Shown piece after piece: positions 15,730 through 46,495 of a stretch of 64,000 nucleotides of DNA. The position numbers were made by a program, and so were the translations under genes. This DNA comes from Akkermansia muciniphila (GTDB lineage: Bacteria > Verrucomicrobiota > Verrucomicrobiia > Limisphaerales > UBA9464), in contig CAMDGV010000007.1 in the NCBI GenBank assembly GCA_945898055.1, positions 1 through 64,000 on the forward strand, in the 5' to 3' direction. Under the pieces are notes generated by a model. The model did not search any database, was not told the origin of the DNA, and was given only the letters and a program-made list of their open reading frames with translations. Position 1 is the stretch's first letter. Every line of letters starts with the position of its first letter.

Positions 15730-16287
15730 ATGAAGGCTCTCATGTCTGTGGAATTGATTGAAACTGGGTTGACCCAACCTGCGCAGCTTTACCGCTGTCA
15801 TTCGGAGTTAATGGGTGTGGTCAGATCGAATGAAACCTATCGATTGGTTGCTGTTCAACCGATTGTTGCTGGCACAGTTTTGTTCCAGATTGAGGGCAAG
15901 TTGACCCAACGACCCACCCGGTACTCGGTTCAAATCGAAGAGGGGTGTCACATTGACCTCGATGAGGGGCACAGCTCGGAGGAGATTCTTGATCGTTACT
16001 TCTGGCGTTTTATGAATCACAGTTGTCTTCCCAATACAATGATCCGTGGGCGGGACGTCATGGCCACTTGCCCCATTGAACCTTGGAAAGACGTGACCTT
16101 TAACTATACCACGACCGAATTTGCTATGGCCGAACCCTTTGAGTGTCAGTGTGGAAATCAGGGATGCCTAGGGACCATTCGTGGATTCAAATATTTAGAC
16201 TCCGTCCATCGCGAGTCTTTACGATCCGTTCTGGCGCCGCACCTGAGGCGCCTGCTCCCCTCGGACGATGGGTGTAGGCCAGCATGA
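15730..16287 (+). CDS. SET domain-containing (protein-)lysine N-methyltransferase
   Basis: FWRFMNHSCLPNTMIRGRDVMATCPIEPWKDVTFNYTTTEF (SET NHSCxPN and FNY motifs) plus post-SET ECQCGNQGCLG. Confidence 0.9.
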   Translation: MKALMSVELIETGLTQPAQLYRCHSELMGVVRSNETYRLVAVQPIVAGTVLFQIEGKLTQRPTRYSVQIEEGCHIDLDEGHSSEEILDRYFWRFMNHSCLPNTMIRGRDVMATCPIEPWKDVTFNYTTTEFAMAEPFECQCGNQGCLGTIRGFKYLDSVHRESLRSVLAPHLRRLLPSDDGCRPA

Positions 16288-19200
16288 CCCCTTTTCAAAC
16301 CGAGTCGACTTACGAGGCTTCCTCTGACGGAGCTCAAGGGTTGCTTTTGTTCTCATTTTTGGAGCGTGCTACCCATCGTTGGCCTGACCAAATAGCCGTG
16401 GATGTACCCCCGAACGAGGGTCATCAAAGTCGAGTTCAGATCACTTACAAATCTCTTTCTCAGCAATCTAATACCCTCGCCCAGATCTTAGGTCAGTGGG
16501 TCAAACGAGAATGTGTCGTCGGTATTTTTCTTCCTCGAAATTCAGCCCAACTTTATATCGCTCAACTTGGGGTTTTAAAAGCAGGAGGAGCTTATACCTG
16601 TATCGATTCCAGCTTCCCGGATGAACGAGTTCGCGATGTGCTCGAAGATTCTGAAGCGGTAATGGTCCTGACCGATGTCGATGGATTGATTCGAATGCAA
16701 AGGATCGGATCCAGTATTGCAGCGGTGCTGGATGTCGGTGCGGCACTGGAATTGCGAGGAGATACTCCGGTGTCTCCACCGTTTATTCCTTGGCTTACGC
16801 CGTCGAGCCTCGCTTACGTTATCTACACTTCCGGAACGACGGGGCGACCCAAAGGCGTTCTTATTGAGCATCGAAGTATCGCGAATCTAGTCAGCGGCGA
16901 TCTAGCAGAATTTCAACTCGGCCCCGGAGATCGGGTCGGGCAAAGTTCCTCAGCCGCCTATGATTCATCCGTCGAGGAGACCTGGCTTGCATTGGCCTCG
17001 GGTGCAACGGTTGTGGTGATGGACGATGCAACAACGCGTCTCGGGCCGGATCTGGTTCCTTGGTTGCGTCGCGAAGGTATCACCGTTTTTTGTCCTCCGC
17101 CCACCCTCTTGCGCGCCTTAGGTTGCGAAAACCCTGAACAAGCCTTGCCGGATCTAAAACACCTCTATGTCGGAGGGGAAGCCCTGCCACGTGACGTCGC
17201 TGATCGATGGGCCCCGGGCCGTCGATTGATCAATGGCTATGGACCAACGGAATGTGCTGTTACCTCCTTGCGTGGCGATGTGCTAAAAGGCGGGACAATC
17301 ACCATTGGAAAACCGGTGCCAGGACTTTTGGCGTGGATACTTGATGAGTCATTAACAAGGGTGTCTGGGGAAGAGCAAGGAGAGCTTTGCCTCGGAGGTG
17401 TCGGGCTGAGTCGAGGGTATTGGAAACGCCCGGAGCTAACCGCTGAAAAATTTATTGAGCACCCACAGTTGGGGCGGCTTTATCGGACAGGGGATCTGGT
17501 TCATTGCGATAGCCAAGGACTCTATCATTTTCACGGGCGCATTGATTCTCAGGTGAAGATTCGAGGCTACCGAATTGAGTTGAGTGGGATTGAATCTCGG
17601 TTGATCGAGTGTCCTGGGGTCCGAGCTGCTGCGTGCCATGTACAAGACAAAGAAATTAACCCCATTCTGGTTGCCTTTCTTGTCCCAGAAGATCCGGCAT
17701 CGCCCCCTTCTTTTAAGGTTATTACCTCGTTACTCGAAGCGGATTTCCCCTCGTATATGGTTCCGGCAAGGTTCGGTATTTTGACCGACTTACCCACTAC
17801 AATTGGAGGTAAACTCAATCGAGCTGCATTGCCTCATCTCGAAGATGTTGATGGGCAGTCCAACCGAGTCGTTATTCCTCCTAGAAATTCGATGGAGGCA
17901 CTGCTTGAACGAGGTTTTCGCAGTATCTTACGACTCTCAGGGCCCTGTTCGGTCGAAGATGATTTCTTTAAGCAACTTGGTGGCGATTCTCTGAGTGCGG
18001 CACTTTTGGTTACCTTGCTTCGTGATGATTCCCTGACCGCGTGGGTCACGGTCCGCGATATTTATGAAGCACGCACAATCGCCGGGTTGGCGCGACGAGC
18101 ATCTGCAGCAGTCGAACCCAAGACGCTTGCTGAGGCTCCATCAAGTTCTCATCGGCAGGGGCATCCTTTTTGGGTAACCGTCGCGCAAGCGTGCTGGCTC
18201 TTGACCTTTTTTTCGATCGGGTCTTGGGGAACCTACCTTGTCGCCTTCTGGTTTCTGCCGCAAATAACTCAACGGGTTGGAGTTTTTACTGCCCTTCTTT
18301 CTGCGCCGCTGTGTTTAATTTTTGGATTTGCCCTTTATACACCGATTTCGGTGGGGTTTGCGGTGATAATGAAGCGTTTGCTGATTGGGACTTATCGCCC
18401 GATGCGCGCGCCAGTGTGGAGCGGATTTTATTTGCGGAACTGGATCGTTCAACAGTCCGTCCGTTTGGTGCCGTGGCGATCCCTTGAGGGTCCCTTCCTT
18501 CAACAGGCGGTCTTACGTGCCTTGGGCGCTCGGATTGGTCGGCGAGTTCATATTCATCGAGGTGTCAACCTCTTGATGGGCGGGTGGGATCTACTAGAAA
18601 TTGGTGATGATGTGACACTCAACCGCGACGCCGAACTAGGGCTGGTTGAATTAGACGCTGGGGAAATCGTGGTTGGGTCGGTCAGTCTTGGAGCTGGATC
18701 GACTTTGGATATTCGAGCGTCTGTTGGTAGCGGCACGGTGCTTGATTCAGGCGCTTATTTAACCGCGCTTTCGTCCTTACCCTCCGGCGGGCATATCCCC
18801 AGTAACCAGCGCTGGGACGGAATTCCGGCGCAAAAGAAAGGTCCAGCACCAGAGCGGCCTTTAGTATCGGGAGAAAGCAAAGGCCTTTCGGCGATAATGT
18901 ACGCGGTAGCGCTTTGCTTTGGACGCCTCAGTACCACCCTATTTTTGACGCTACCCTTCGCCGGTATGACTTGGATTATGTGCCGTTTGCGGGGAGTCGA
19001 TTTCCATGATTTTGGGGATTGGATTTACGGCTCGCATCCAAGCGGGGCAGCTTGTTTCTTTGGTCTAGTAGTGGTGATCATTTCTGTGCCAATCACCTTA
19101 CTATTCGGAGCCGTTTGGGTGCGTTTGATCGGGCGTGTGCCCGAGGGCAATATTCATCAATGGAGCGTGGACTTTGTGCGGGTTATGTTAAAAATAGATT

Positions 19201-20282
19201 TGGTTGAATCGGCAGGAAAGTGGCTGAGTGGCACATTATTTTGGCCCGTCTGGCTTCGGTGCGCCGGAATGAAGGTGGGTAAGGGGTGTGAAATCAGCAC
19301 GATTATCGATGTGGTTCCAGAGCACATTGAAATTGGGGAGGAGACTTTTCTGGCAGACGGTATTTATTTAGGTGGACCACGGATTCATCAAGGTGTGGTA
19401 ACCCTTGCCAAGACAAAACTCGGACGTTCAAACTTTTTAGGGAACCATGTGGTAGTATCGGCGGGGCAACGTTTACCAGACGAGATTTTGTTGGGAGTTT
19501 GCACTGTCGCGGATGACTCGATGCTTCGTGCAGGAAGTTCATGGTTTGGGCTTCCGCCCTTTGAATTACCACGACGTGAAGTTGTGGATTATGATCGAAG
19601 TTTAACCCACGAACCCACTTGGATTCGATACTGTGATCGGCTGTTTTGGGAGTTGTTGAGGTTTGCTTTGCCAGTAACCCCTTTCTTTACGCTGATTCTC
19701 TGGTATCGAGCCTTGGCAGCGGTTGACACAGCGGGCGGTTCCAGATCAATTCTGCTGACAGCTCCACTGGTAAGCTTTTGTTTAGTCAGTTCAGTTTGCT
19801 TCTTAGTTCTAGCCTTGAAGTGGTTACTCTTAGGCCGAGTTCGGCCGGGGCAGCATGCCCTGTGGTCTTGTTGGTGTAGTCGTTGGGACTTCCTCTATGT
19901 TGCTTGGGGTCAATATGCGGCCCTTCCCTTGACGACTCTCGAAGGCACCTTGCTTCTTTCTTGGTACCTGCGTGCGATGGGCATGAAGTTGGGTGCTCGA
20001 GTCGTTCTGGGGAGAGGGTTTGCCCATGTAGTCGATCCGGATATGATCCACATTGAGGAAGGCGCAACGGTTAACGCGATGTATCAAGCGCATACGTTTG
20101 AAGACCGAGTGCTTAAGCTCGATTATATCTATGTGCGACGCTGGGCCACCCTTGGCAGCAGATCCGTGCCTCTCTATGGGGCCGATGTCGGTGAGCGTAC
20201 TCATGTTGCGCCCCATAGCGTCATCATGAAGCGAGAACGGTTAATCCCAGGGCGCTACTATGTCGGGGCACCAACCCGTTAA
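16284..20282 (+). CDS. Pls/PosA-type non-ribosomal peptide synthetase (A-PCP plus C-terminal multi-TM/left-handed beta-helix region)
   Basis: A domain [89 protein letters not shown]; then TM segments alternating with hexapeptide-like segments ([38 protein letters not shown]). Confidence 0.92.
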   Translation: [1332 protein letters not shown]

Positions 20283-21651: not shown

Positions 21652-23295
21652 ATGAAGATGTGGGATGACAAATCGGGAGAGAAAACTAAGCAGATGCGGT
21701 GCGTGAATCTAACACGCACGGCACTTCTTGTAGGTGTCGCCTATAGCTGCTCAAATGCTCCATCAGCGTTTGGAATGAGTGCGTCTGATCTTGATCAACT
21801 TTTCGGCTATCGCCTCAGTGGAGTTCGGGTTCTCCCCCAATTCGGCCTATCCTTCGCGTTCGACGACAATATCTTTTTCGCTGGAGAAAAATCGGAGGTA
21901 CGATTCATTGAACTTGGACCGCCTCAGTATCGGGTTGTTTCTCAAAATGGACTTTACTCGTACCAACCCACCGAGCAGAGCCCTTTCGTTCCCTATCAGG
22001 GCTTCCTCCAGCAACAGTCTTTTTCAATCTCCGCACGGCCCAGTTTACTTGCTGCATCGCCCCTCTTTTCCTCTGAGCAATCTCCGCCACCTCCATTCCA
22101 AGTTCTCAATAATTCCTTCGGGATTCTCGCCGGCTTCGCCCGTCCCGCGAGTGGATACAGCACCAATAGCATTTTCTTACAACCGAAGGTCTCTGATTTT
22201 ATCGGAACGGTAAGCCCTGGCATCAAACTGCTGTATGGATCTGCCAACTTGTTATCGGTAAGCTATCACGCGGACATTGTTCGTTACGTAGAGTTAGGAA
22301 TTGCACCGCCCTTGATGCACCGAATCGAGAGTAAATTCAGCAGTGAACCCAGCCGAATTAAGTTCGAGGTTGGCCAGTCAACCGCGTTTCTGTCCACTTT
22401 TCTGGGACGCGGTCAAAACCTTGAAAACCGAGCACAGTTAGTCGATCGCTGGATCTCAAACTTTGACGTGAGGATCACCTATGACACATCGACCAAGACG
22501 GACCTTTATCTGACGCAAAATTTCAATACAATTGATTACTCTTCCGGAGTAAATCTCTACGGGACTCAATCATGGGGGACCGGTTTCGGCGCTAGTTACA
22601 AGCCGTCCGAGAAAACTTCGTTTTTCGCCGAGGTTGGCTATGGTCGATCAACGCAGATAGCGTCTTCACTTAATCTCCCAACTCAGGCTTTTTCGCAAAC
22701 CTACAGCGGTTCAGTGGGTATCCGAGGAGAACTCACCAGACGAATCAATGGTACTGTGAGCGCTGGATACCAAGTTCGAGACGATCCAAATACCTTGACC
22801 GGAAGCTTCGGAATTCCTACCGTGGCAGTCGATATTAATTACATTCCTCGAGAGACCACAACGATCCAGCTTGGCTACGGCAGGCGCACTGGTGGCGCTA
22901 GTCAATATGCTGGCCAATCTTTGACCACGGACAACGCGCAACTAACGTTAACGCAACTTATTGGAAGACAAGGCAAGTGGAGTGCATTAACCGGAATCAA
23001 TTTCGCGTCCACTGCGTTCGGCGCCTCAACTCGGGACTTAGGCGTCGCCTATGATTTTGTCGCTGGCTCCGATGTGCGAGTTCGCACACTGCGGGAAATC
23101 AACTTACAACGAACGGACCATATTCTCAGTTTAAATGCTGGAATTTCTTATGCTCCGCGTCGTTGGCTGACAACGGCCCTTAACTATAATTTTGAGGATT
23201 ACCGACTCACTTTTAGTGACGCTGGTTTACAGGATGTGACTCTGCAAAACTACACCGCGCACCGAATTATTCTTTCTTTAAATCTGGGCTATTAA
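21652..23295 (+). CDS. Outer-membrane beta-barrel protein (exopolysaccharide locus)
   Basis: Signal-like N-terminus, repeated amphipathic beta strands to an aromatic C-terminus (HRIILSLNLGY); immediately upstream of Wza/Wzc-like genes. Confidence 0.75.
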   Translation: MKMWDDKSGEKTKQMRCVNLTRTALLVGVAYSCSNAPSAFGMSASDLDQLFGYRLSGVRVLPQFGLSFAFDDNIFFAGEKSEVRFIELGPPQYRVVSQNGLYSYQPTEQSPFVPYQGFLQQQSFSISARPSLLAASPLFSSEQSPPPPFQVLNNSFGILAGFARPASGYSTNSIFLQPKVSDFIGTVSPGIKLLYGSANLLSVSYHADIVRYVELGIAPPLMHRIESKFSSEPSRIKFEVGQSTAFLSTFLGRGQNLENRAQLVDRWISNFDVRITYDTSTKTDLYLTQNFNTIDYSSGVNLYGTQSWGTGFGASYKPSEKTSFFAEVGYGRSTQIASSLNLPTQAFSQTYSGSVGIRGELTRRINGTVSAGYQVRDDPNTLTGSFGIPTVAVDINYIPRETTTIQLGYGRRTGGASQYAGQSLTTDNAQLTLTQLIGRQGKWSALTGINFASTAFGASTRDLGVAYDFVAGSDVRVRTLREINLQRTDHILSLNAGISYAPRRWLTTALNYNFEDYRLTFSDAGLQDVTLQNYTAHRIILSLNLGY

Positions 23296-23298
23296 TTT

Positions 23299-23862
23299 AT
23301 GAAAAAGAAATCTAAAATAATATTATTGTTGTATATATTATTAGGTATTGCACCGATCTTTGGTCAAGATTCTAACCGCGTTCTCTCGTCTGGCGATATC
23401 ATTTCTATTAAGGTGGCAGAAGAAGTGGAGATGACCCAAAGAATCACAATCCCGAACGACGGTCTAGTCACTTTTTGGTTACTCGATCCGATCGTGGTAA
23501 CTAACCGTACAGTCGCCGAGGTGCGAAATACTCTGTATACGATATTGGATAAAGATTACATTATCAAACCCGCTATCTCCGTCGAAGTCGAAGTTTATTC
23601 AAAAAAGTTTATAAACCTAGTTGGTTCCTTTGTGATACCGGGTCGCAAGGAATTACCATCGGAACAACGGATTGATATTATCGATGCCTTTGCAATCGCA
23701 AGTGGTTTCAGTCCACGAGCAAACCTAAAAAAAATTATTCTTCGTCGTAATGGGCAACCAACTATTTACTCCAAAAAAGAATTGGAAGCTTTATATAAAA
23801 ATGGTAAGCGAATATTTGTTGAGGCAGATGACACCATTGAAGTTGAAGAATCAATTTTTTAA
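23299..23862 (+). CDS. Polysaccharide biosynthesis/export protein (Wza-like, SLBB)
   Basis: LSSGDIISIKVAEEVEMTQRITIPNDGLVTFWLLDPIVV...VNLVGSFVIPGRKELPSEQRIDIIDAFAIASGF-type sequence. Confidence 0.88.
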   Translation: MKKKSKIILLLYILLGIAPIFGQDSNRVLSSGDIISIKVAEEVEMTQRITIPNDGLVTFWLLDPIVVTNRTVAEVRNTLYTILDKDYIIKPAISVEVEVYSKKFINLVGSFVIPGRKELPSEQRIDIIDAFAIASGFSPRANLKKIILRRNGQPTIYSKKELEALYKNGKRIFVEADDTIEVEESIF

Positions 23863-23877
23863 CTAGATTTAATTCTG

Positions 23878-26034
23878 ATGCAACAAGATTTTCAAAAAAC
23901 ACAAGATTCGGTTCAATCATTCCACCAAGATACTCTTAATATAAGGCAAGTTTGGCATTCAATTTTAGAGCGGCGGTGGTTAATTATTTCGATTTGGTTT
24001 TCGGTGATTGTGGCTGGGAGTATCTACGCGTTTAAAGCGGTTCCGATCTATGAATCGTCTATTACTTTGCAGATTGATCCTGACTCGGCAGGATTTCTCT
24101 ATTCGAAGGACCTTTATGCTGGTGGAATGGCCGATCAGAATTATGTATCGACCCAGCATCGAAATTTGCGAAGCCGCAGTCTTTTGTCTGACGTTTCTCA
24201 GGCTCTAAACCTCAAAACTGAGGATCCTCGTTACAGTAAATCGCTAGATGAAATAAGAACCCTTCAGGCGGATATTAGTATAATTCCAATTCGTCTGACT
24301 CGGCATGTTGAAGTCCAGGTGTCGCATACTTCACCACTTCAGGCTCAGAAAATTGCTAACAAAATCGGGGAGTTATTTCTACAAAAAAATCTTGATGATA
24401 AGAAACAGAAGTCGTTAGCAGGATTTAGAGTGCTGAATCAAGAAGCGGATGCTAAGGAGATAGAGTTAGAGACGATCCAGAAGCAACTTCAGAAATATAG
24501 GTCGGACAAAACGATGATATCTTTGTTGAGTGACCAAAATATTGATGGGCAAACCCTGAAAGATTCTAAGTCTGCCTACGAACAGATGCGTTCTCAGAGT
24601 GATTTGGCCTCCCAGACAGCGCAGCAGGCGCAGGAATTTATTGCTACAGGTAAGGATATTAGCGAATTTGGACCTATCGGAAAAGATGAGCAAGTGTCAT
24701 CTCTCAGGAAATCTATCAACGCAAATAATACAAAACTTGCTGCTTTGAGGACTCGATATCGCGATCGCCATCCGAAAGTTCTCCAGATTTTGACTGAAAT
24801 TCAAGCAGATACCCAGAAAGTTAAAGACGAATCAGAACGCGCTTATCGAACTTTGTTGGCTGAAGCTGAGCGAGTTAAGTCCTTGGAAGCTAATTCTCTG
24901 GAGAAATATAAAGAGTCTGAAAAGAAAATGTTTACCTTGGGTGACGCTAAGGTTCAGCATGATATTATGATGCAGAAGATGAAGCGTGTTGAAATGATTT
25001 ACGATACGATTCTCTCGAAAGCTAAGGAGTTTGATATCGGGACCAAGGATCTCTTTCAGAACCTTAAAATAGTCGAGTTGGCTACTCTTTCGGTTAAACC
25101 CGCTAGACCAAATAAGACTTTAGCATTAGCGAGTTCGATTCTAGTTGGATTAGTTTTAGCCTTGGTCGGAGCGTTTTTTATAAGTTATTTGGACGATTCT
25201 ATTAAGAGTCAAGAGGATGTTGAGAATATTCTTCATGTCCCCTTTCTTGGGTATATTCCCAATATTAAGTCCACAAGTGTAGTGGAACGTGATTTACAAG
25301 CCCATCTGCATCCTACTTCTAGTTCAGCAGAAGGTTTCCGAACTCTTAGAGCGGCGATTTCGTTAATCCGAAATTCAGAGAGAATGAAGGTGATTGCTGT
25401 AACAAGCACTATTCCTTCTGAGGGTAAATCCCTCGTTGCGTCCAATTTAGCGATTGTCACAGCCCAAACGGGTCTTCGCACCGTGTTAGTTGATGCTGAT
25501 TTAAGGCGACCATCCGTTCACAAAGCATTTCAATTACAGAGTCTCACTGGTTTGACCTCTTATTTGACTGAGAGAGTTAGTAGCATTGGCGATATTACTC
25601 ACTCGAGTGTTGTTGCTAATCTAGATATTATATGCTGTGGTTCTACTCCCTCCAATCCTTCCGAGTTAATAAGCTCACGGCGAATGGTTCAATTTCTAGA
25701 AGAGTTGTCGAAGCGGTATGATCGTATTATTCTCGATTGCCCTCCAGTTTCAGCAGTAGCGGACCCTTTGGTAGTTGGGGCCATGGCTGACGGGATTGTT
25801 TTCGTCACAAAATTTAACAAAATTCGAAAAGGCCACGCTGTTCGTTCTATACAACGAATTCAGGACTCTGGAATCAACATTATTGGATTAGTTCTTAATG
25901 ATATTGATTTTGAAGGAAAAGATTCCTATTACTACAGTTACCACTATTATCAGAACAGATATTATGCATCTCACTATAGTGGCAAGATTGCTGATTCTGC
26001 AGCAGTAACACCGCCTGTAGATTCAGTAAGCTAA
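23878..26034 (+). CDS. Polysaccharide biosynthesis tyrosine autokinase (Wzc-like BY-kinase)
   Basis: Wzz domain, coiled coil, Walker A VTSTIPSEGKSLVASNLA, Walker A' VLVDADLRRP, Walker B RIILDCPPV, C-terminal Tyr cluster SYYYSYHYYQNRYYASHYSG. Confidence 0.93.
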   Translation: MQQDFQKTQDSVQSFHQDTLNIRQVWHSILERRWLIISIWFSVIVAGSIYAFKAVPIYESSITLQIDPDSAGFLYSKDLYAGGMADQNYVSTQHRNLRSRSLLSDVSQALNLKTEDPRYSKSLDEIRTLQADISIIPIRLTRHVEVQVSHTSPLQAQKIANKIGELFLQKNLDDKKQKSLAGFRVLNQEADAKEIELETIQKQLQKYRSDKTMISLLSDQNIDGQTLKDSKSAYEQMRSQSDLASQTAQQAQEFIATGKDISEFGPIGKDEQVSSLRKSINANNTKLAALRTRYRDRHPKVLQILTEIQADTQKVKDESERAYRTLLAEAERVKSLEANSLEKYKESEKKMFTLGDAKVQHDIMMQKMKRVEMIYDTILSKAKEFDIGTKDLFQNLKIVELATLSVKPARPNKTLALASSILVGLVLALVGAFFISYLDDSIKSQEDVENILHVPFLGYIPNIKSTSVVERDLQAHLHPTSSSAEGFRTLRAAISLIRNSERMKVIAVTSTIPSEGKSLVASNLAIVTAQTGLRTVLVDADLRRPSVHKAFQLQSLTGLTSYLTERVSSIGDITHSSVVANLDIICCGSTPSNPSELISSRRMVQFLEELSKRYDRIILDCPPVSAVADPLVVGAMADGIVFVTKFNKIRKGHAVRSIQRIQDSGINIIGLVLNDIDFEGKDSYYYSYHYYQNRYYASHYSGKIADSAAVTPPVDSVS

Positions 26035-28522: not shown

Positions 28523-30667
28523 ATGCTTCGACGTTCCATCAGAATGCTCAGTTTCCTAGCTTTTGGCTGGGCCGGTCTGCTTCTCTGTCTTCTCAGTGAG
28601 GCAACTTTGTTTGCTGCCGATGAGCCTCTCCTAAATCCAGGGAAGGCCTTGAGCTTTTGGGCTCTGCAGGCTGTCTCCAACCCGGCGGTTCCAGCGGTCC
28701 GGAACGAGGCATGGGTGAGGTCGCCTGTGGATGCCTTCATCCTCGCAACGCTCGAGCAAAAGGGGATCAAACCGGCTCTTCCCGTGGACCGTCGCTCACT
28801 GATTCGCAGGGCGACCTTTGATCTTACTGGGCTTCCGCCGAACCCAGACGAGGTTCAGGCCTTTCTCGAGGATCGATCACCCGATGCTTTCGCCGGGCTC
28901 GTGGAGCGGCTTCTCGCCTCGCCAAGGTATGGTGAGCGCTGGGGACGTCATTGGCTCGATGTGGCGCGTTATGCTGACTCAAATGGCTTGGATGAAAACG
29001 TCGCCTACGGCAATGCTTGGCGCTACCGCGACTATGTCATCCGGTCGTTCAACGCAGACAAACCCTACAACCTCTTTCTGATCGAACAGATTGCGGGCGA
29101 TCTCCTGCCAACCACCGAGGACCTGTCCCTTCGACACGATCGACTCGAGGCCCTTGGTTTTCTTTGTATCGGACCGAAACTCTTAGCGGAACCCGACAAA
29201 ATGAAGCTGGAGATGGATATTATTGACGAGCAGATCGAGACTTTCGGTCGGGCGTTTCTCGGTGCAACTCTGGGCTGCGCTCGCTGTCACGATCACAAGT
29301 TTGATCCTATCCCGACAGATGATTACTACTCCTTGGCAGCGATTTTCAAAAGCACTCGGACCATGGACGATCTTGCGACCATCGCCAAGTGGCACGAGCC
29401 TTCGGTCTCCACACCGGCCGACCTTCAGATCCAGAAAGCCTATTCTGAGCGTCTTGCCGCTCAGAAGACTTCCCTGACCAACCGGGTCTCAGAAGCGAAG
29501 CGTTTGCTTCTCTCCACACTTGGTACGAATGCGCTACCTCGGGAGCCGGAACGACATTATTCCAGCAATACAGTCGCACAGATTGAGGCACTGCGCACCG
29601 ATCTGAAGGCATTGGAGGCCGAGGCTCCGGAGCCCGCCAGTACCATGGGAGTGGAGGATGGCACGAATATTTGGAAGACGATTCGAGTGCATCTAAGGGG
29701 AAGTCATCTGACCCTAGGAGAATCGGTCCCTCGCAGAGTGCCGCGGGCGATGAGCTTTGGTCCTCCTCCTGAATTTGGCGAACGTCAGAGCGGACGACTG
29801 GAGCTTGCTAGTTGGTTGGCCGACCCGCGGCATCCACTGACGGCTCGCGTGTTTGTCAATCGAATCTGGCGTTGGCATTTTGGGCGGGGATTGGTGGCGA
29901 GTCCGGACAATTTCGGACTCTTAGGGGAGCGGCCTTCGCATCCTGAACTCCTCGACTGGTTGGCCCGCCGTTTTGTGTTAGATGGATGGAGCATGAAGTC
30001 TATGCACCGCCTCCTTATGCTCTCCAGCACCTACCAGATGTCGGTGAACGGGTCACGCGAAGTCGAGGATATTGATCCCGAGAATGCGCTCCTCTCACAC
30101 TTTTCGTTGTTGCGCCTCGGTGCGGAAGAAATTCGCGACAATCTGTTATCCGTCGCCGGCAAACTTGATCTGACAATGGCCGGCAAAACGATTCCTCTGA
30201 AGAATCGTGAGTTTGTCTTTAATCATACATCCAAAGATGCCACCACTTATGAGAGCCTGCGGCGAGCCGTGTACCTGCCGGTGATTCGAAACCATCTCTA
30301 CGATCTCTTCCAGCAGTTCGATTACCCGGATCCCGCTATCCCTAGTGGCAATCGGGCGACGACCGTGGTAGCGCCTCAGGCCCTGATGATGATGAATAGC
30401 GAGCTTGTTTTGGAGGCCGCCGAAGGCTTCGCTAGACGTCTGCTGGCTCCTCCCCATTCTTCGGACCGCCAACGGCTGCTCCAAGCCTATTTGCGTGCGT
30501 TTGGTCGGATTCCCTCTGGGCTGGAGCATCGTTTGGCTGAGACGTTTCTCCTTTCCTCCCAGGCGGCGCAGGGCGGGGGAGTTGCTTCGGAATCTGCACG
30601 CCTGGAAGCGTGGATAACCCTTTGCCAAACTTTATTGGCATCGAGTGAATTCATCTATTTGAACTGA
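28523..30667 (+). CDS. DUF1549/DUF1553 (PSD1) domain protein
   Basis: VDAFILATLEQKGIKPA...YGERWGRHWLDVARYADSNGLDENVAYGNAWRYRDYVIRSFN...LGCARCHDHKFDPIPTDDYYSL. Confidence 0.95.
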   Translation: MLRRSIRMLSFLAFGWAGLLLCLLSEATLFAADEPLLNPGKALSFWALQAVSNPAVPAVRNEAWVRSPVDAFILATLEQKGIKPALPVDRRSLIRRATFDLTGLPPNPDEVQAFLEDRSPDAFAGLVERLLASPRYGERWGRHWLDVARYADSNGLDENVAYGNAWRYRDYVIRSFNADKPYNLFLIEQIAGDLLPTTEDLSLRHDRLEALGFLCIGPKLLAEPDKMKLEMDIIDEQIETFGRAFLGATLGCARCHDHKFDPIPTDDYYSLAAIFKSTRTMDDLATIAKWHEPSVSTPADLQIQKAYSERLAAQKTSLTNRVSEAKRLLLSTLGTNALPREPERHYSSNTVAQIEALRTDLKALEAEAPEPASTMGVEDGTNIWKTIRVHLRGSHLTLGESVPRRVPRAMSFGPPPEFGERQSGRLELASWLADPRHPLTARVFVNRIWRWHFGRGLVASPDNFGLLGERPSHPELLDWLARRFVLDGWSMKSMHRLLMLSSTYQMSVNGSREVEDIDPENALLSHFSLLRLGAEEIRDNLLSVAGKLDLTMAGKTIPLKNREFVFNHTSKDATTYESLRRAVYLPVIRNHLYDLFQQFDYPDPAIPSGNRATTVVAPQALMMMNSELVLEAAEGFARRLLAPPHSSDRQRLLQAYLRAFGRIPSGLEHRLAETFLLSSQAAQGGGVASESARLEAWITLCQTLLASSEFIYLN

Positions 30668-30670
30668 ACA

Positions 30671-32107
30671 TTGCCCATGAACGCACCCGATTCGAGTTCA
30701 CCTCCAACGATCTCTCGGCGGCGGTTGTTGCAAGAGCTCGGCTTGGGCTTTGGTTGGCTCGCGGCCACTTCCCTGCTGACGTCCGCAGGGGAACCTGCGA
30801 CCGCTGTGGATCCGCTGGCCCCGAAGCGCCCTCACTTCCATGGCAGAGCTAAGCGGGTTATTTTTCTCTTTATGAAAGGAGGTCCTTCGCAGGTGGATAC
30901 CTTTGATCCTAAGCCGCTGCTCGACCGCGACGATGGAAAACCATTTCCCGGTCAGAAACCGAGGGTTCAGTTCGCACCAACGGCCGAACTGCTCAAATCT
31001 CCATGGAAGTTTAGGAATCACGGAGAGAGCGGATTGCCCGTCAGCGAATTGTTCCCGCATGTGGCGCACTGCGTGGATGACCTGTGCATTCTTCGTTCCG
31101 TGCATGGAACCAATGCTGCGCATGGCGGCGCGGCCTTGAAACTTCACACCGGCAGCGACAATTTTGTCCGTCCAAGTATGGGCTCCTGGATCAGCTATGG
31201 ACTGGGCACAGAGAATCAGAATCTGCCTGGATTCATTACGATCTGCCCCACCTTCGCCCACGGGGGGGTGAATAACTGGGGTGCGGCCTTTCTTCCAGCG
31301 GCTTACCAAGGAACGCCGCTCGGCAATGCGACTGTTCCGGCAGGGGACGCCATGGTACGTCACATCCGAAATTCGCGCCAGAGCTCAGCGCAGCAGCGAG
31401 AGCAACTCGATCTGCTTTCTGCGATGAATCGAGAACATCTCCGGCAGGTGGGGAGCCATCCAGCACTCGAAGGCCGTCTCAACTCATTTGAGTTGGCCTT
31501 CCGGATGCAGATGGCGATGCCGGAAGCCCAAGATTTTACTGGGGAATCCGAAATCACCCGGCGGCTCTATGGATTGGATGACAAGACTACAGCAAACTTT
31601 GGGCGGCAGTGTCTGATGGCACGACGTTTTGCGGAGCGGGGCGTGCGCTTCATCCAAGTCACCCATAGCGACGGGGAGGTTCAATGGGATCAGCACGGTG
31701 ACTTACGGAAGGGGCATGCCAAGAATGCAGCGGAAGTCGACAAGCCGATTGCTGGATTGTTGAAAGATTTAAAAGCGAGAGGACTTCTGGACGACACATT
31801 GGTGCTCTGGGGTGGAGAGTTTGGCCGCACCCCAACGGCTCAAGGAGGCCGCGATGGCCGCGACCACAATCCTGAAGGTTTTACAATGTGGATGGCTGGA
31901 GCGGGGGTAAAGGCGGGCACGGCCTATGGTGCAACCGACGATTACGGTTGGTATGCCACTGAGAACAAGATGCATATACACGATTTGCACGCCACCATTC
32001 TTGCCCTGCTCGGATTGGACCATGAGAAGCTCACTTGCCGGTTCGCTGGACGAGATTTTCGACTGACCGATGTCAGTGGGACCGTTGCGACAGGTGTCTT
32101 CGGCTAG
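30671..32107 (+). CDS. DUF1501 domain-containing protein
   Basis: KRVIFLFMKGGPSQVDTFDPKPLL...GRQCLMARRFAERGVRFIQVTH...LVLWGGEFGRTPTAQGGRDGRDHNPEGFTMWMAGAGVKAG; 3 nt after the PSD1 gene. Confidence 0.96.
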   Translation: MPMNAPDSSSPPTISRRRLLQELGLGFGWLAATSLLTSAGEPATAVDPLAPKRPHFHGRAKRVIFLFMKGGPSQVDTFDPKPLLDRDDGKPFPGQKPRVQFAPTAELLKSPWKFRNHGESGLPVSELFPHVAHCVDDLCILRSVHGTNAAHGGAALKLHTGSDNFVRPSMGSWISYGLGTENQNLPGFITICPTFAHGGVNNWGAAFLPAAYQGTPLGNATVPAGDAMVRHIRNSRQSSAQQREQLDLLSAMNREHLRQVGSHPALEGRLNSFELAFRMQMAMPEAQDFTGESEITRRLYGLDDKTTANFGRQCLMARRFAERGVRFIQVTHSDGEVQWDQHGDLRKGHAKNAAEVDKPIAGLLKDLKARGLLDDTLVLWGGEFGRTPTAQGGRDGRDHNPEGFTMWMAGAGVKAGTAYGATDDYGWYATENKMHIHDLHATILALLGLDHEKLTCRFAGRDFRLTDVSGTVATGVFG

Positions 32108-44866: not shown

Positions 44867-46495
44867 TTAAGGCGATTGTCGATAGTGAAATAGTTTAGAA
44901 AGCGACTGGGCACCAAAATCGATAGAGGGTTCTTGGGTGTTAGGTGGAAAAGCAATGAGGCAGGAGACCAGTTCCACGCCGAGAAGGTGACGGTCGGTAG
45001 GCCAAGGTCGGTAAACCTCTGGGTTGGGAGTGTAGCCGGCGCTGTAACTAAGCTCGATCGGCTTTCCATTGCGCCAGACCCCCCAAAGTTGAAGGATATT
45101 TATGTCGGCCCGTTCAAATCGAAAAACGTGAAAGGTCAGATCAATGCCATCGATCACAATGTTTGTTTTTTGGACCCCGCCGACCTGCTTCCATCCAGAA
45201 CCAGGCATGCAACTGTCCGGGCGATGGCCGAGGGCGAGTTTACTCTCCGGCGATGGTTTCCAAAAGAGGTGATAGGCTTCCACAAATCCGAGCGGAGCAG
45301 ATGCACTGGTGAGCTTCAGTGATTCACCCGAATGAGCTTTTAGTTGACGCCACGCTTGTTCGTTGAAAGGAATCTTTTGAACTCCCGATCCAGTTTCCAA
45401 TCGGGCGGTAAAATAGGGAATTGTTTGGGGAAGCGCTTGTCGTGCGAGAATCCAGTACCAAGTGTGGGCCCCAATTAGACAGGCCATAACAATGCCGAGC
45501 AAGGGCCGTAGATCAGGAACTCGATCCCAGCGCAATGCTCCGAAACGGGAACCCCATTTCGCTCCGGATCCAGAGGGCCATTGATCTCCAGCGAGGCTTC
45601 CTTTTGAGAATTTTTTTCCGACAACCCAGATGGCTAAGTAAAAAGAATACATGGCGCTGTTTCCCACCCAATCATGGGCTTTATCCACCGCTTCAGAGCC
45701 GCTTTTTTCCATAATCCAACAGAGAATTAAGGTTCGTATTAGATTGCTGATCAGCGCAAAGAAGGTGGTGACACAGGTGAGTCCCAAACGTTGAATCGGA
45801 GTGAGCAGGAGCAGTTCACCGATGGCGAGACTCAGCATCAATCCGGACTGGAGAGAGCGGATGCCACTGCAAGCTTCCACGATTCCCACGGCACCGCGAC
45901 TTAGTTTTAAAACAGCCCCACTCATCGTTTCGACGGGAATCCCAAGCCACAGAAGGATCTCCGCGACCACTTGGGCAACTCCGATCATTAGACTTTGCTG
46001 GAGAGGATGTGCAATCCTATCCGGCCAAGGTACAGCGGTCAGAAAGAGGAGAAGAGGAAAGAGCGAAAGACGCAGGAGTCGTACGCCTCCAACCCAGGCT
46101 AGAGCCGTCAGCGTGCCTCCGACCGCAGCCCCATTGATGAACCAGAGAACGATACCAGACTGATGGTATTCGTTTCGGTACACTTCAATTGGAAAGAGAG
46201 CCAAGGCCGGGAGGGCGATCAAGGCGGGGTGCCAGCACTTTTCGAGGCCTGTATTTTCGGAGATCTCTTTCCAAAAAGACTCGGGTTGAATTCCCCAACG
46301 CCGCCAGAGATAAATCACGACGAGAAAGGGAACGATAAAACCATAGGAGTAATTATCGTCATGAGACCAGAAGGTAGAGCAGATAACCAAGGCCCAGCTC
46401 CAAAGGACCGTCAACAGAAAGAGGAGTGCGGGCGCGTTCTTTGCAGACCGAGGCGGAGCGGATGAAGGCGAGGTGAGGATTAGTGGCGTCGTCAT
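44867..46495 (-). CDS. Exosortase with fused EpsI-like C-terminal domain
   Basis: Multi-TM; catalytic EACSGIRSLQSGLM and LISNLIRTLILCWI, HDWVGNSAMYSFYLAIW; C-terminal soluble domain with CMPGSGWKQV (EpsI-like). Confidence 0.9.
   Translation of the reverse strand: MTTPLILTSPSSAPPRSAKNAPALLFLLTVLWSWALVICSTFWSHDDNYSYGFIVPFLVVIYLWRRWGIQPESFWKEISENTGLEKCWHPALIALPALALFPIEVYRNEYHQSGIVLWFINGAAVGGTLTALAWVGGVRLLRLSLFPLLLFLTAVPWPDRIAHPLQQSLMIGVAQVVAEILLWLGIPVETMSGAVLKLSRGAVGIVEACSGIRSLQSGLMLSLAIGELLLLTPIQRLGLTCVTTFFALISNLIRTLILCWIMEKSGSEAVDKAHDWVGNSAMYSFYLAIWVVGKKFSKGSLAGDQWPSGSGAKWGSRFGALRWDRVPDLRPLLGIVMACLIGAHTWYWILARQALPQTIPYFTARLETGSGVQKIPFNEQAWRQLKAHSGESLKLTSASAPLGFVEAYHLFWKPSPESKLALGHRPDSCMPGSGWKQVGGVQKTNIVIDGIDLTFHVFRFERADINILQLWGVWRNGKPIELSYSAGYTPNPEVYRPWPTDRHLLGVELVSCLIAFPPNTQEPSIDFGAQSLSKLFHYRQSP

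Follow-up and report, generated by a model that had tools for sequence, protein, structure and literature searches.

Gene pair and domain architecture

The window, that is, the whole stretch of 64,000 nucleotides that was analysed, carries on its forward strand a gene for a small SET-domain protein that runs into a gene for a single-module non-ribosomal peptide synthetase (NRPS). The coordinates of the pair, its overlap and the motifs NHSCLPN, FNYTTTEF and CQCGNQGC, all reported in an earlier sequence-only reading of this DNA, were found as described. The features are as follows:

15730–16287, + strand: SET-domain methyltransferase, 185 aa (PF00856, 27.8 bits against a cut-off of 22.4)
16015–16026, + strand: NHSC motif, residues 96–99, invariant in the 12-protein alignment A2
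16099–16107, + strand: F124-N-Y126; F124 and Y126 invariant, Y126 aligned with BurB Tyr124 at the SET catalytic-tyrosine position
16144–16167, + strand: post-SET CxCGxxxC with Cys139, Cys141 and Cys146, invariant
16284–16287, + strand: ATGA stop/start overlap of the SET and synthetase genes
16284–20282, + strand: single-module NRPS of a SET-associated Pls-like clade, 1332 aa
16359–17831, + strand: adenylation (A) domain, residues 26–516 (PF00501 at 26–380, PF13193 at 436–510; A-domain matches in the PDB)
16962–17264, + strand: specificity-pocket region, code residues D227, S228, E231, C270, Y295, G297, G318, V326 and T327 (plus K510)
17919–18098, + strand: carrier (PCP) domain with the phosphopantetheine site GGDSLS (PF00550, residues 546–605)
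18231–20273, + strand: TIGR02353-type terminal domain (361–364 bits; AF2 model, pTM 0.80)
20085–20117, + strand: motif [11 protein letters not shown] in the third beta-helix segment

The SET protein passes the Pfam cut-off, has the NHS motif and a tyrosine at the catalytic position, and its Cys99, which we take to be the first zinc ligand, is invariant like the three post-SET cysteines; F124 occupies the 'F/Y switch' position of SET enzymes. It was the sole SET match in the window's own genome assembly.

The synthetase matched the profiles AMP-binding (236 bits), AMP-binding_C, PP-binding, AA-adenyl-dom and TIGR02353. The last describes the terminal domain of Pls and PosA, the synthetases of epsilon-poly-L-lysine and delta-poly-L-ornithine, and was matched at 361 bits, under its curated cut-off of 423. 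One A-PCP module followed by a terminal domain of beta-helix segments and membrane helices is the Pls/PosA architecture, and the likeness proposed from the sequence is thus borne out. In the AF2 model of the terminal domain, three left-handed beta-helix (hexapeptide) segments lie between long, presumably membrane-embedded helices. A fold search with this model returned weak matches, to hexapeptide acyltransferases only, and a sequence search gave no convincing solved relative. The third-segment motif of the clade differs from that of ordinary Pls/PosA synthetases, where it is typically QTHLFEDRVMK; this change suggests an acyl-transfer domain that is still working, with an altered acceptor geometry. 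As a possible activator of the carrier domain, the genome showed a single match to the ACPS family (PF01648), in a 140-aa frame (L140; G000:C89:4149-4430).

Recurrence of the pair

When genome contigs were searched with the SET protein, matches came from 12 loci, in Verrucomicrobia, in the actinomycete genera Planosporangium, Lentzea, Actinocrispum and Streptomyces, and in a metagenome-assembled genome (MAG) labelled Gammaproteobacteria. A complete A-PCP-terminal-domain synthetase lay directly 3' of the SET gene in 10 of the 12, with terminal domains 48–60% identical to that of the window. At the S. melanogenes locus (L010) the synthetase was ~13 kb from the SET gene, a spacing recorded for G453 and for four Streptomyces plasmid records, on which clade synthetase and close SET gene share one region. 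At L002 (L002:8001-8801, L015; 84% SET identity) the first residues of a synthetase were followed by unrelated sequence, and this locus looks broken or misassembled. In all, an adjacent SET gene and clade synthetase were found in ~16 genomes besides that of the window (Verrucomicrobiota, Actinomycetota and the MAG labelled Gammaproteobacteria). The 4-nt overlap, as ATGA or GTGA, occurred in 9 of 15 examined pairs, and most of the others had a possible start at most 14 nt from the stop. Even a diverged SET protein (37% identity, in G1030) was still encoded abutting the synthetase.

This recurrence across phyla rules out chance adjacency, and it excludes a pairing unique to this genome, one of the outcomes that the sequence-only reading had named as telling against itself. 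An apparent SET-synthetase fusion at L009 in the longest-ORF listing was rejected, the two frames being separated by a TAG stop. A phage origin was likewise rejected: viral contigs and phage records held no close relative, and there was no PHROG match.

The SET-associated clade

In a tree of 65 synthetases, made by a quick method that printed long-branch warnings, the SET-associated enzymes (18 rows) formed one side of a branch with an SH-aLRT of 100 and a length of 1.42. Their C-terminal domains were 23–29% identical to those of ordinary members. In searches that showed both groups, the SET-associated synthetases scored ~336–386 bits against TIGR02353 and full-length ordinary Pls/PosA synthetases 523–886 bits; all clade members scored thus fell below the 423-bit cut-off, with the full-length ordinary members above it.

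The clade is rare. TIGR02353 was found in 74 of 297 sampled actinomycete genomes and a clade member in the centre genome only; in the other 73 there was no close SET gene, one of them having a remote SET match, away from the contig of its synthetase. Clade members were found in 1 of 239 genomes of Streptomycetaceae and in 1 of 240 of the order of Lentzea, each time the centre genome. Weak, distant SET matches did occur among the verrucomicrobial and gammaproteobacterial genomes that carry ordinary synthetases; all lay off the synthetase contig. Across these ~35 genomes and the 73 actinomycetes, no SET gene shared a contig with an ordinary Pls/PosA synthetase, which rules out SET pairing as a general trait of Pls enzymes.

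Within the clade, SET and synthetase distances were correlated (Mantel r=0.76 over 14 pairs); shared descent alone could give such co-inheritance, the correlation included. Besides L002, three genomes depart from the pattern. The synthetase of G327 (L124:5717-11153) is nested in the clade near that of the window and has the same code, and its genome lacks a close SET gene; a class I/II aminotransferase gene lies ~110 nt upstream. In G1097 the locus is truncated by the end of the contig, and no close SET gene was found elsewhere in the genome. In G008, of the same genus, the SET gene (84% identity, as at L002) is present with a stop codon inside the matched frame, and the terminal domain was not found.

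The cassette is thus rare and scattered but its two parts stay together, the pattern to be expected if both genes serve one function. Co-function is strongly supported, and we regard it as very probable that the SET protein and the synthetase act in one pathway.

Gene neighbourhood

An all-against-all comparison of neighbourhood ORFs revealed no fixed third gene, only SET and synthetase recurring broadly. In three genomes, G029, G1165 and G1184, a MetH-like methionine synthase gene lies no more than a few kb from the pair (L125:1-3804, L131:16676-19999 and L129:1825-5634), and a SulP-family anion transporter gene lies directly 3' of the SET gene on Streptomyces plasmids (L043:14941-17050) and in S. 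melanogenes (L010). Neither the three verrucomicrobial MetH neighbourhoods nor the Streptomyces SulP genes are general; together they lean slightly towards sulfur or methionine. In the window, the region downstream of the pair (21652-26034) holds an exopolysaccharide-export set of a putative beta-barrel, Poly_export and Wzz/kinase-like proteins. PSCyt2/PSD1- and DUF1501-type genes lie at 28523-32107 and an exosortase (EpsH) gene at 44867-46495.

An invariant specificity code

The synthetase motifs were aligned by hand on what we take to be the GrsA code positions; the mapping was checked against the published PosA residues D217, M218, E221, H260, N280, T304, V312 and S313, and the other residues were read from the alignment. 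The resulting code is DSECYGGVTK in each of the 18 clade sequences of the tree, and the A domains of G1030 and G1184 carry it unchanged, despite the divergence of the G1030 SET protein. It is not among the codes known to select a diamino acid (Lys, Orn, Dab, Dap or beta-Lys). Ordinary members carry the lysine code DAESIGTVVK, the ornithine code DMEHNGTVSK or others, and a plain lysine or ornithine code is ruled out by this reading of the pocket.

In cationic-homopolymer synthetases, an Asp and a Glu (DxE) bind the alpha- and side-chain amines (PMC10522769), and both are kept at code positions 1 and 3 of the window synthetase. The position of PosA Thr304, mutation of which costs that enzyme 33-fold in catalytic efficiency (PMC10522769), is Gly in every clade member (G318 in the window). 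Bdello_A (OFZ39577.1), a CHPA-type synthetase of Bdellovibrionales, has been published with an identical code. None of the four known diamino-acid substrates was favoured by its A domain, L-Arg gave modest activity, and its authors raised a possible preference for a larger substrate or analogue (PMC10522769). In addition, Ser at code position 2 predicts, by the chain-length rule, a side chain of at least lysine length (PMC10522769). A pocket that keeps the Glu, loses the Thr and gains a Tyr would suit a methylated cation, and the orphan pocket of the Bdello_A type would be fitting for a larger one. The lysine or ornithine polymer of the sequence-only reading therefore stands in part: the DxE pocket and the Pls-like build agree with it, but the code is of neither type and the enzyme with the identical code favoured none of the four known diamino-acid substrates.

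The synthetase might instead use arginine or a methyl-arginine-like substrate, with the SET protein serving an unrelated or minor step, which we consider very improbable. To our knowledge, arginine methylation is not generally known for SET enzymes. The activity of Bdello_A with L-Arg favours arginine, but its authors themselves term it modest and propose the larger analogue (PMC10522769).

Kinship of the SET protein with BurB

The best PDB match of the SET protein by sequence was BurB (E 9.5e-9), with histone methyltransferases next (1e-3). BurB was also the best fold match of its AF2 model (pLDDT 80), at 7e-10 (ASH1L, 2e-7); TM-scores ranged from 0.54 to 0.63. BurB methylates free methionine in a SAM-dependent reaction, giving S-methylmethionine (PMC12542666), and its pathway supplies an NRPS-PKS (PMC7496086). 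As BurB shows, the substrate of the SET protein need not be a protein lysine. A distant SET gene (31% identity) on a conjugative plasmid of Tabrizicola piscis (L045:1124-6128) is accompanied by genes for a GHMP kinase, a PLP-dependent enzyme, a DMT transporter and an alanine racemase; this locus looks like an unusual amino-acid pathway and suggests that SET proteins of this sort may act on small molecules.

The SET family has RFMNHSC and F-x-Y, as in lysine methyltransferases, versus LLLHSC and M-x-Y in BurB, which has Met at the F124 position in the sequence alignment. By the F/Y switch rule, Phe at this position permits di- and trimethylation. Because of these motifs and this rule, lysine is ranked before methionine as the methylated amino acid, by a small margin.

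If the SET protein were instead a BurB-like methionine S-methyltransferase, the synthetase would activate S-methylmethionine, a sulfonium compound, and join it to an acceptor. This is the very product of the closest relative by sequence and fold, the MetH and SulP genes near some of the pairs would be in keeping with it, and the sulfonium could be held by Glu231 and Tyr295. We think it unlikely all the same. NHSC stands in place of LHSC of BurB, and the BurB substrate and SAM residues are not conserved (His72 to Asp76, Arg133 to Glu135, Met122 to Phe124), although this hand mapping weighs little, as BurB contacts Met by its main chain. The second code residue, Ser, points by the chain-length rule to a side chain of lysine length or more, and S-methylmethionine is without a side-chain amine for a Pls-type chain. 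Moreover, only SET and synthetase recurred broadly among the neighbourhoods compared, and the S-methylmethionine decarboxylase, aminotransferase and dehydrogenase genes of a BurB-type pathway did not recur beside the pair in that comparison.

A proposed two-gene pathway

From the genes and domains, their conserved pairing, the clade with its invariant code and the kinship with BurB, we infer a substrate, its methylation before activation, and a product. The SET protein probably prepares the substrate of the synthetase, if all precursor-supply readings are taken together. The form that we favour, and to which we give about an even chance, is a compact pathway cassette in which a free amino acid is first methylated by the SET protein, and the bulky cation so formed is what the synthetase activates. 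The SET protein would be a BurB-like, SAM-dependent enzyme whose free substrate is most likely L-lysine, di- or trimethylated at the epsilon-amine, and less likely methionine, methylated at the sulfur. In the A domain, Asp227 would recognise the alpha-amine and Glu231 the side-chain cation, and the pocket, opened by the change from Thr to Gly and given a Tyr, would take the methylated bulky cation instead of plain Lys or Orn. The cation would then be loaded onto the carrier domain and coupled to an amine acceptor by the membrane-bound, hexapeptide-type terminal domain, and the product might be an oligomer or a conjugate of the methylated cationic amino acid. Since a fully methylated epsilon-amine is unable to form the Pls isopeptide, trimethyllysine would have to be linked via its alpha-amine or to another acceptor.

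Where the sequence-only reading had the synthetase, its product or the residue on the carrier methylated, the BurB kinship and the specialised pocket point rather to the free amino acid. The constant adjacent pair by itself also fits methylation of the synthetase or of the product, and G327, with the clade code and no close SET gene, counts against the favoured cassette. A SET enzyme acting after loading, on carrier-bound or polymer lysine-type residues, would yield an N-methylated cationic homopolymer. The conserved coupling to a Pls-type synthetase is compatible with this, as is a DxE pocket able to bind a side-chain amine, but it seems to us decidedly unlikely: the pocket is altered in every clade member, no preference for the known diamino-acid substrates was seen with an identical pocket (PMC10522769), methylation beforehand fits better, and the nearest SET relative works on a free amino acid.

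Proteins are the substrates of most studied SET enzymes, and a constant adjacent partner whose distances correlate with those of the SET protein is a possible target; the SET protein might therefore regulate the synthetase through lysine methylation, for instance in its A domain or terminal domain. To this we give little credence, as ordinary Pls/PosA enzymes function without a SET partner, the closest SET relative is a small-molecule enzyme, and the special pocket would be left unexplained.

Returning to the free amino acid as the methylated species, we advance a more specific version tentatively: the two-gene pathway, scattered but recurrent, would start with free N-methylated, perhaps trimethylated, lysine made by the SET protein. 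From it the Pls-like membrane synthetase, its terminal domain re-tooled for a non-isopeptide linkage, would build an amino-acid oligomer or conjugate with permanent quaternary-ammonium charge, an undescribed product class. A search of the open-access literature found no papers on trimethyllysine NRPSs, on SET-NRPS clusters beyond bur or on N-methylated cationic homopolymers; relatives of each part are known, and as far as that literature goes neither their combination nor the invariant orphan code nor the distribution has been described. The products of Pls and PosA are antimicrobial cationic polymers, and the published Bdello_A is an orphan lacking a good substrate, for which the SET tie of enzymes with the same pocket suggests a specific and easily tested substrate class. 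If the proposal is true, it would add to BurB a second case of an NRPS pathway served by a SET enzyme, and could lead to methylated polycations whose properties are new.

Comparison with known systems

Histone lysine methyltransferases (ASH1L, NSD, SETD2 and MLL) share with the SET protein the NHSC and FxY motifs and the post-SET CxCxxxxC; unlike it, they have extra domains, which are absent here, and they scored below BurB, whereas the window protein belongs to a bacterial pair with an NRPS. BurB is alike in being a small stand-alone SET and post-SET protein that supplies a precursor to an NRPS pathway, but in the fold alignment the window protein is ~21% identical to it, with different residues at the SAM and Met sites. 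BurA loads DMSP and is without the alpha-amine-binding Asp (PMC7496086), a residue that the window synthetase keeps. Also unlike the bur (malleicyprol/DMSP) pathway, the DMSP gene set does not recur by the SET-synthetase pair. With Pls and PosA the clade shares A-PCP and a membrane-bound terminal domain, the DxE residues and an HxFED motif in the third segment; it differs in its code, its Thr-to-Gly pocket, its own version of the third-segment motif and its near-constant SET partner. With Bdello_A, in a comparison drawn solely from the published code, it has all ten code residues in common.
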